Notes under the pieces: generated by a model
The model's database searches: none
Told to the model about the DNA's origin: nothing
The model's input: only the letters and a program-made list of their open reading frames with translations
DNA from: Candidatus Gastranaerophilales bacterium
GTDB taxonomy: Bacteria; Cyanobacteriota; Vampirovibrionia; Gastranaerophilales; Gastranaerophilaceae
Assembly: GCA_028693235.1 (NCBI GenBank)
Contig: JAQUVW010000001.1
Coordinates: 186,001-250,000 of the forward strand
Direction: 5' to 3'
DNA length: 64,000 nucleotides
Position numbers and translations under genes: made by a program
Part shown: one piece after another, positions 43,064 to 49,733 of the stretch
Layout of the letters: each line of letters starts with the position of its first letter
Numbering within the stretch: position 1 is the first letter of the stretch

Positions 43064-43684
43064 ATGAAAAAAGCATTTACTTTAGCGGAAGTATTGATGA
43101 CCCTTGTAGTCATAGGATTAGTCGCTGCTATGACAATTCCAACGTTGATGAATAATACAAATAATGAAGAGAACAAAGCGTCATTAAAAAAAGCATTGTC
43201 TACGTTGCAACAAGCTATAGATATGCAATATGCCCTAGATGGTGTTGATATAACTGTAAGCTCCGGTGCTAACGGTGGCGAAAATATGTACAATAATAAC
43301 AATGCTTTTAAAAAATATATGAATGTTGCGAAAACCGAGTTGTCATCTGCATCAACTTCAAATGCTTATGGTGCTGACGCTAGTGGTGGTTTGGTTATGA
43401 GAATGAATGACGGCTCAACCATAACCCTTTCTTATGGTTCAGCTTATATTGATACTAATGGTGAAAGAGGTCCAAATAAAGTAACAACTGATTATAAAAA
43501 TCCTAAAGATGGTTATTCTGTTAATTTTGGTAAAAAAACCAGCGGTAATTGGCCCAATGAAAAATATGCAGATAGACACTCTGTCATTCAATCAACTATG
43601 ACCGCAAGTGTTTTGACAGGTGCAAAAGTTACAAGTAGACCTTCTTTTGAGTCTTGTTTTGATGATTCTTCTTGGTGTCAATAA
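43064..43684 (+). CDS. Type IV prepilin-like (pseudopilin) protein
   Basis: 206 residues. The N-terminus MKKAFTLAEVLMTLVVIGLV is a class III signal: cleavage after Ala4, Phe at +1 and Glu at +5, followed by a hydrophobic helix that anchors or packs the subunit. The rest is a polar, Asn/Ser/Gly-rich globular domain with a C-terminal Cys pair (FESCFDDSSWC). Such proteins are assembled by type IV pilus or type II secretion machinery, which is not encoded in the window. AAGGA precedes the ATG; a strong terminator follows. Confidence 0.85.
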   Translation: MKKAFTLAEVLMTLVVIGLVAAMTIPTLMNNTNNEENKASLKKALSTLQQAIDMQYALDGVDITVSSGANGGENMYNNNNAFKKYMNVAKTELSSASTSNAYGADASGGLVMRMNDGSTITLSYGSAYIDTNGERGPNKVTTDYKNPKDGYSVNFGKKTSGNWPNEKYADRHSVIQSTMTASVLTGAKVTSRPSFESCFDDSSWCQ

Positions 43685-48470: not shown

Positions 48471-49613
48471 TCATGAAGATTTTTTCTTTTCAAGCTTTTC
48501 AATTCTTTTGTTCATATCTTGTAATTGATTTTTTAATTCGAGATTTTCTTTTTTGAGCTTTTGGATTTCTGAGTAGTTTTGTTTAATGGCATTTATGGCA
48601 GTGAACAATATTTCATTGGTGTCAATGTAGAGAATATTTTTTATTTTTCCAGAATTTTCTCCCACGAAAATAGCGTTAGGCATTATTTTTTGTAAATCTT
48701 GAGCGATAACACCTTTGTGGATACGTTTTGTTTTGTCAGATTTGTAGGTGTAATTTTTCACTTGAAGTTTTGAAATTTCTTCAATACCGATATTATTGTC
48801 TTGCCCAATGTTTTTTAGTCTTTTATCCGAAGCTGTTACAGCTCCGCTTGTAGTTGTCAAGCTACCGTTAATGTGGATTACTCTGTCGTTAAAATTGCCA
48901 CCGATTAGGGGGGAATCTGTTTTTTTAATATCAATAAAGAGTTGATTGCTTGTATCTGAGTCAGGTCCTGCGTTTGGACCGATAGCAATATTGTTAGAGC
49001 CTGTAATTATACTTCTTAAAGTTTCATAACCTATAGCGACGTTATTGCTTCCGCCTTGATTTTTAATGAGTGCATCTCGCCCGAATGCAGAGTTATATGA
49101 GCCGGCACGATTTTCGTTGAGTGCAAAATATCCGACGGCAGTGTTGCTTTGTCCCAGAGTGTTAGATTGTGATGCTCCGTTTCCAAGTCCTGTATTTTTG
49201 CTACCTGTTGTTATAGATGATAAAACATCATTCCCGATTGCTGTATTTCCGCCACTTAAAGGAGTGTCAAAGTCGAATGCTATTCTGCCTATTTTACTCA
49301 TAACGCCTGCATTTTTTTGGTAAAAATCAATCATTGATGTGTTCAATGCGTCAGGTGAAAGATTTCCGTTGTTTGTGATAATAAGTCTGCAGTTTTTAGA
49401 CTCGTCAGGAACAGCGTTGGCTCCGATTAGTGCGGATTGGCTTTCTCCAAGTCCGAAATATATATCAGAGGCGTTTGAAGAATACGACCAAGGGTCTGAA
49501 GAAACCCTTTGTTTTTTTGTTACAACCGGTATTAGTGACGTTAGGATTATGCTTACAATAAGCATTGTGATTAATGCTTCAATTATTGAAAAACCATTTT
49601 GTTTTCTGTTCAT
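48471..49613 (-). CDS. Prepilin-anchored YadA-head/S74 fusion protein
   Basis: 380 residues from the ATG at 49613, chosen because AGAGGTG precedes it. The N-terminus MNRKQNGFSIIEALITMLIV is a class III prepilin signal, with cleavage after Gly7, Phe at +1 and Glu at +5. Residues 120-215 carry YadA-like repeats (GNTAIGNDVLSSITTGSKNT). From about residue 261, TASDKRLKNIG begins a peptidase S74 chaperone domain with the Ser-Asp cleavage site, followed by RIHKGVIAQDLQKIMPNAIF and a coiled coil. A prepilin anchor on such a domain is not an arrangement I know from classical families. Similar to the protein at 1-2648. Confidence 0.82.
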   Translation of the reverse strand: MNRKQNGFSIIEALITMLIVSIILTSLIPVVTKKQRVSSDPWSYSSNASDIYFGLGESQSALIGANAVPDESKNCRLIITNNGNLSPDALNTSMIDFYQKNAGVMSKIGRIAFDFDTPLSGGNTAIGNDVLSSITTGSKNTGLGNGASQSNTLGQSNTAVGYFALNENRAGSYNSAFGRDALIKNQGGSNNVAIGYETLRSIITGSNNIAIGPNAGPDSDTSNQLFIDIKKTDSPLIGGNFNDRVIHINGSLTTTSGAVTASDKRLKNIGQDNNIGIEEISKLQVKNYTYKSDKTKRIHKGVIAQDLQKIMPNAIFVGENSGKIKNILYIDTNEILFTAINAIKQNYSEIQKLKKENLELKNQLQDMNKRIEKLEKKKSS

Positions 49614-49733
49614 ATTTGACACCTCTTTTATTTGATTGTAGCATATTTATCTTAATTTATTAACGATTTTTGCGGTTTTGTTTTTTCTGCTATAATGTTT
49701 TCAAGTTAGTTAGTTAAAATATTGGAGAATGTC

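Follow-up and report, generated by a model that had tools for sequence, protein, structure and literature searches.

A prepilin-anchored S74 fibre protein of Gastranaerophilales, a probable self-trimmed adhesin of the type IV filament machinery

The gene at positions 48471–49613 (minus strand) of the window, i.e. of the whole 64,000 nucleotide stretch of DNA analyzed, encodes a predicted 380 amino acid protein in a gut bacterium of the order Gastranaerophilales. A class III prepilin start, a series of 17-residue repeats, a Peptidase_S74 domain and a long C-terminal helix are present in a single chain. The protein is probably a homotrimeric adhesive fibre that is folded and self-trimmed by its S74 domain and displayed via its prepilin helix by type IV filament machinery. 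The first-pass annotation had regarded this architecture as new, however the combination of prepilin and S74 is already recorded: Raynaud et al. (2021) list it (IPR012902-IPR030392) as one of the 15 most frequent modular pilin architectures and interpret S74 as a peptidase (PMC8179133), and surface fibres that end in S74 are known from the Bdellovibrio MAT proteins (PMC10769870). No further paper that names both IPR030392 and pilins was found in the literature searched, and a literature search for pilus adhesins of Gastranaerophilales or Melainabacteria gave nothing relevant. What is new here is the near-complete fixation of the fusion in the order, the chaperone and trimer reading, the overlapping gene triplets and the evidence for a missing half of the pilin stem. 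The features of the gene are as follows.

48471–49613, minus strand: complete gene of the prepilin-anchored S74 fibre protein, 380 aa and a stop codon (open reading frame, translation, Pfam, family conserved in the order)
49635–49663, minus strand: promoter-like TTAATA-17-TACAAT with TG before the second hexamer (extended −10-like); a consensus match only, the number of such sites in the region being near chance
49621–49627, minus strand: Shine-Dalgarno-like AAGAGGT, 7 bases 5′ of the ATG (sequence)
49593–49613, minus strand: leader peptide MNRKQNG, residues 1–7, expected to be removed by prepilin peptidase (PF07963, E-value 2e-6; peptidase encoded)
49521–49592, minus strand: anchor helix, residues 8–31 (mature +1 to +24), with Phe+1, Glu+5 and Pro+22 (invariant residues; helix at 10–31 in the model)
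49248–49520, minus strand: conserved linker and beta-rich neck, residues 32–122, apparently where a pilin would have the second half of its stem and its globular head (alignments, helix propensity, low-confidence model)
48930–49247, minus strand: 17-residue N-[TSVI]-[AG]-x-G repeats, then one extra strand, residues 123–228 (period test, model, phage tail-fibre families)
48831–48929, minus strand: connector to S74, residues 229–261, with a predicted cut after Ala261 (position before SDKRLK, by analogy with Bd3182; PMC10769870)
48621–48830, minus strand: Peptidase_S74, putative intramolecular chaperone, residues 262–331, SDxxxK intact (PF13884, Foldseek)
48474–48620, minus strand: long C-terminal helix of coiled-coil character, residues 332–380, expected to be released with S74 (model helix 332–379; sequence)

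The open reading frame runs from an ATG at 49613 to a stop codon ending at 48471, exactly as first annotated. An alternative GTG start at 49622 was dropped in favor of this ATG because the GTG overlaps the ribosome-binding site. The gene stands alone among housekeeping genes; its neighbors are ispH, rpsA, a gene for a dihydroorotate dehydrogenase-type FAD/NAD-binding subunit and one for an HtrA-like protease, and pilus genes are not adjacent. A prophage origin was rejected in view of these neighbors and of the best phage matches, which stop short of the anchor.

The N-terminal sequence MNRKQNG/FSIIE displays the Gly7, Phe+1 and Glu+5 of a class III prepilin signal, as had been claimed, and in addition Pro+22. 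The Pfam N_methyl family (PF07963) matches residues 2–27 above its curated cut-off. In an alignment of 28 relatives F8 (+1), E12 (+5) and P29 (+22) are invariant, and Pro+22 is kept in 69 of 69 S74 proteins and, in the genome itself, in 14 of 14 ordinary prepilins. In both groups the cut is preceded by either Ala or Gly. The genome encodes one prepilin peptidase (A24_N and A24 domains, at G000:C5:127202), an operon of PilB/GspE, PilC/GspF and secretin, two PilT-like ATPases and about 30 prepilins within 2.1 Mb. The latter have near-identical KKAFTLAEVLITLVIIG starts, most of them with Ala and not Gly before the cut. One of them, and part of a second S74 protein, lie in the window:

43064–43684, plus strand: ordinary prepilin, one of about 30 in the genome
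1–2648, plus strand: C-terminal portion of another member, longer at 1167 aa, with the same S74 end; its upstream part is at G000:C1:185145–186000

The 1167 aa member starts at G000:C1:185145, upstream of the window, and has the same prepilin start followed by about 37 repeat units of 17 residues. A YadA_anchor domain is absent from the 380 aa protein and from the whole genome, and a YadA-type autotransporter was rejected for lack of this anchor barrel. Because the prepilin residues are invariant, the peptidase, the pilus machinery and some 30 prepilins are encoded and YadA_anchor is missing, it is unlikely, on the sequence, that the N-terminus acts as an ordinary Sec signal, a case that the first-pass annotation had itself put forward as a possible refutation.

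Nothing in Pfam matches the protein between N_methyl and Peptidase_S74. This region nevertheless has a clear period of 17 residues: self-identity at lag 17 is 0.31 versus 0.21 at the 99.9th percentile of shuffled sequences. At the DNA level a tandem repeat search shows no array in the gene. The quality of the AlphaFold2 model is moderate (mean pLDDT 67, pTM 0.44) and is poor at residues 31–120. In the repeat region, however, the pLDDT is mostly 80–90 and the strands begin at positions 124, 141, 158, 175, 192 and 209, one per 17 residues. The S74 fold comes after the repeats and is followed by a helix at 332–379, in agreement with the coiled coil proposed earlier. The S74 domain itself, also proposed from the sequence, is found by PF13884 at residues 262–314 (E-value = 1.2e-13, above the cut-off), and SDKRLK represents its intact SDxxxK motif.

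The best solved structures found by Foldseek are all trimeric S74 domains, i.e. the MyRF ICA domain (7dc3) and the endosialidase chaperones 3gud and 3gw6; a weaker match is the Fusobacterium trimeric adhesin CbpF. Among predicted viral structures about 100 residues superpose at 1.0–1.7 Å with 43–45% identity. Residues 123–378 match phage tailspikes, including SPO1 gp2.52, with 26–31% identity, and the anchor is never reached in the best matches. PHROG phage tail-fibre families likewise match the repeat and S74 part. Phage S74 tailspikes and tail fibres (SPO1 gp2.52, the endosialidase chaperone domain) thus display the same order of repeats, S74 and coiled coil, but they are attached to virions and have no prepilin start.

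The repeats had earlier been described as a YadA-like head. The 17-residue repeats are there and the fold is similar, but the Pfam YadA_head family has no match in the 380 aa protein, only 3 of 28 close relatives match it (best E-value = 4e-10), and the nearest matches are phage tail fibres, whose repeats are of the same type. For this protein “YadA head” is therefore a resemblance of fold only and not a family assignment. YadA-type adhesins also have a repetitive head with one strand per turn, a coiled coil and a trimeric state, which is presumed for the 380 aa protein. They are anchored by a C-terminal barrel, whereas the 380 aa protein is anchored at its N-terminal end and its coiled coil is expected to be shed.

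Self-cleavage was at first placed between Ser and Asp. In Bd3182, for which S74 self-cleavage and a trimeric fibre have been demonstrated, the cut site is at S782 (PMC10769870), and by analogy the cut in the 380 aa protein is predicted before the Ser, at Ala261/Ser262. The Bdellovibrio bacteriovorus MAT fibres are similar in that they are bacterial surface fibres with many paralogues and an S74 SDxxxK end, and MATs self-cleave and form a trimeric beta-fibre. They are described as having a signal peptide followed by a common domain of about 130 residues, and the paper mentions no pilin (PMC10769870); the S74-prepilin family has a prepilin start. Raynaud et al. propose a peptidase activity for the IPR012902-IPR030392 proteins (PMC8179133), and as the catalytic motif is intact, S74 could stay on the filament and act as a protease on outside targets. 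This is very unlikely, since the characterized S74 domains (endosialidase, Bd3182; PMC10769870) cut only themselves and are released intramolecular chaperones, the conserved repeats before and coiled coil after S74 make up the standard chaperone layout, and the closest solved folds are S74 chaperones.

The distribution of the fusion was analyzed by a search of 59 related genomes and the genome itself with the S74 Pfam family as the sole query, so that prepilin starts had no part in the selection. There were 71 S74 matches, and in 69 the reading frame was traced back to its start. Sixty have a prepilin start, eight are cut by contig ends (two of these retain the end of the anchor helix), two were not read, and one is complete without a prepilin start. 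The last is from another family of the order. The fusion is thus present in 60 of the 61 S74 genes with a readable N-terminus and in 27 of the 59 related genomes, and the prepilin part does not appear as a separate gene, the second refuting case named in the first-pass annotation. The SDxxxK motif is present in 68 of the 69 S74 proteins read. A fusion by chance or by misassembly was rejected on these counts; as judged from the sequences, the fusion is not a chance event. A related view is that a tailspike gene was captured by chance beside a prepilin start and has no cellular role. The repeat and S74 part clearly belongs with phage tail fibres, however the frequency of the fusion, the intact motifs, a ribosome-binding site of its own and the housekeeping surroundings all speak against a remnant of this type. 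The conservation appears to have largely refuted it, and it is scarcely tenable.

A scan of named genomes by alignment gave at least 420 relatives, whereas a single-protein query scan of contigs gave none. The best 80 of these at least 420 relatives are almost all from Gastranaerophilales. Of 86 S74 frames in the alignment scan 66 have a prepilin start, and most of the others are truncated at the end of the stretch. Bacteroidota proteins with a different kind of N-terminus (L193, L202) are among the exceptions. Within the phylum, S74 genes occur in 85 of 291 sampled genomes, mostly in Gastranaerophilaceae, with up to 11–12 copies per genome. One cyanobacterial S74 protein from elsewhere in the phylum (L242) is without a prepilin start and adjoins a phage-tail-like gene.

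Several families contain three consecutive, often overlapping S74-prepilin genes on the same strand (L044, L112, L123, L128, and likewise L103 and L119). This layout would suit the joint production of a heterotrimer or of three tips as a set.

In type IV pilins the stem helix is about 50 residues long and its second half packs on the globular head (PMC10191384). The modelled N-terminal helix of the 380 aa protein has 22 residues, and in the S74-prepilin family it ends near +24. Past it lies a conserved stretch, PW-Y...SDIYFG-G-SQ-A-IG (also written PW-Y...SDIYYG-G...IG). The protein has an extra domain C-terminal to the prepilin motif (the repeats and PF13884), but in the model a full pilin module, i.e. 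a stem of about 50 residues and a globular head, does not precede this grafted part. Helix propensity at +30 to +53 is much poorer in the S74 proteins (mean cost 0.64 versus 0.37 in 13 ordinary prepilins; Mann-Whitney p 1e-8, which overstates independence because the compared sequences are related). As a control, single-sequence prediction of the ordinary prepilin in the window gives helices at 7–30 and 35–59, with low confidence and as a hint only. The second half of the stem and the pilin head thus seem to be missing, which is a lead rather than a fact because the model has low confidence at residues 31–120. Since the helix ends near +24 and helix propensity is poor beyond it, the anchor may correspond to a pilin of which only the membrane half is left. 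The protein shares with the modular pilins of the survey a class III prepilin motif followed by S74 in one chain; it differs in the apparent absence of the full pilin module, and the survey does not discuss repeats, trimerization or Gastranaerophilales (PMC8179133).

Several relatives (L045, L046, L088, L089, L090) have 23–36 or more residues ahead of the anchor motif, and several of these display a common odd stretch, RGGGQSKPNKGLALLKNSSFSGF. The additional residues may reflect either the choice of start codon or long leaders.

With the second half of the stem and the pilin head seemingly missing, it is not certain that the protein is taken up into a filament. The prepilin helix could then serve only to anchor a trimer in the inner membrane, as a periplasmic fibre that never enters a filament. 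The modelled stem and the lack of linkage of the gene to pilus genes would agree with this. It is improbable, however, as virtually all members retain Pro+22 and Glu+5, residues characteristic of pilins that form filaments, phage-like repeats in highly variable numbers suit exposure to the outside, and a full secretin machine is encoded. The type of filament is a related question. The PilB/PilC/secretin operon also encodes a protein with weak matches to T2SSB/T2SSC, and the ordinary prepilins of the genome are pseudopilin-like, so that the protein could work with a type II secretion-like system and its trimeric fibre could surface on a short pseudopilus. This is unlikely too, as the two PilT-like retraction ATPases fit retractable pili, with the reservation that these systems are hard to separate by sequence.

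Display through a pilus-type anchor, as first suggested, thus appears to be the best reading, and the following course is proposed for it. The protein would enter the inner membrane by means of its prepilin signal and lose the leader to the prepilin peptidase, which would cut after Gly7; the signal is seen in the sequence and its processing is expected. Three chains would then join, and their 17-residue repeats would be wound into a trimeric beta-fibre by S74 and the coiled coil, which together would serve as intramolecular chaperone, as in other members of the S74 family. S74 would cut before Ser262 and leave together with the coiled coil, a step that would mark correct folding and expose the fibre end; the SDxxxK motif for this is present. 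The encoded PilB/PilC/secretin machine would take up the three short anchor helices and so display the fibre outside; the place of uptake is most likely the tip or the start of the filament. There it may bind a glycan or cell surface in the gut, and the many diverse copies per genome would form an adhesin repertoire. Both adhesion and ligand are suggested only by relatives, i.e. phage tailspikes and Bdellovibrio fibres.

The minor pilins CofB and TcpB, which are trimeric, suggest a tip position by analogy, as they sit at the tip of the pilus as a homotrimer with prepilin anchors and initiate assembly (PMC9565799, PMC8179133). CofB and TcpB differ in that they keep a pilin-like domain and have extra domains that do not self-cleave and for which no S74 fibre is described. 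A more tentative proposal, which is possible but has rather less than even chances, is that a “headless” prepilin helix with a self-assembling, self-trimming trimer of phage type represents a distinct kind of filament cap, with three helices delivered as a ready-made tip. The overlapping gene triplets would then give heterotrimers in some families, and interchangeable fibres on retractable pili would be the main adhesin repertoire of the order.

If the preferred reading of a displayed, self-trimmed trimer is correct, this gut order, which is common but poorly cultured, has a permanent adhesin system in which receptor-binding fibres of the phage type were transferred to bacterial pili, and their folding chaperone is shed afterwards. 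It would also offer a simple way for a symmetric trimer to start a type IV filament. A pair of domains that had been surveyed as a possible peptidase function would become a testable mechanism of display.

Within the genome, contig C6 ends inside a gene with a prepilin start and repeats (L039), and contig C1 begins inside a gene with repeats and S74 (L036); the two have 25-mers in common. They are probably one gene that was split by its repeats in the assembly. The contigs of many relatives likewise break inside S74-prepilin genes. The paralogues L038 and L036 are almost identical over long blocks of repeats and in their S74 ends, and their sequences suggest that recombination has taken place between them.
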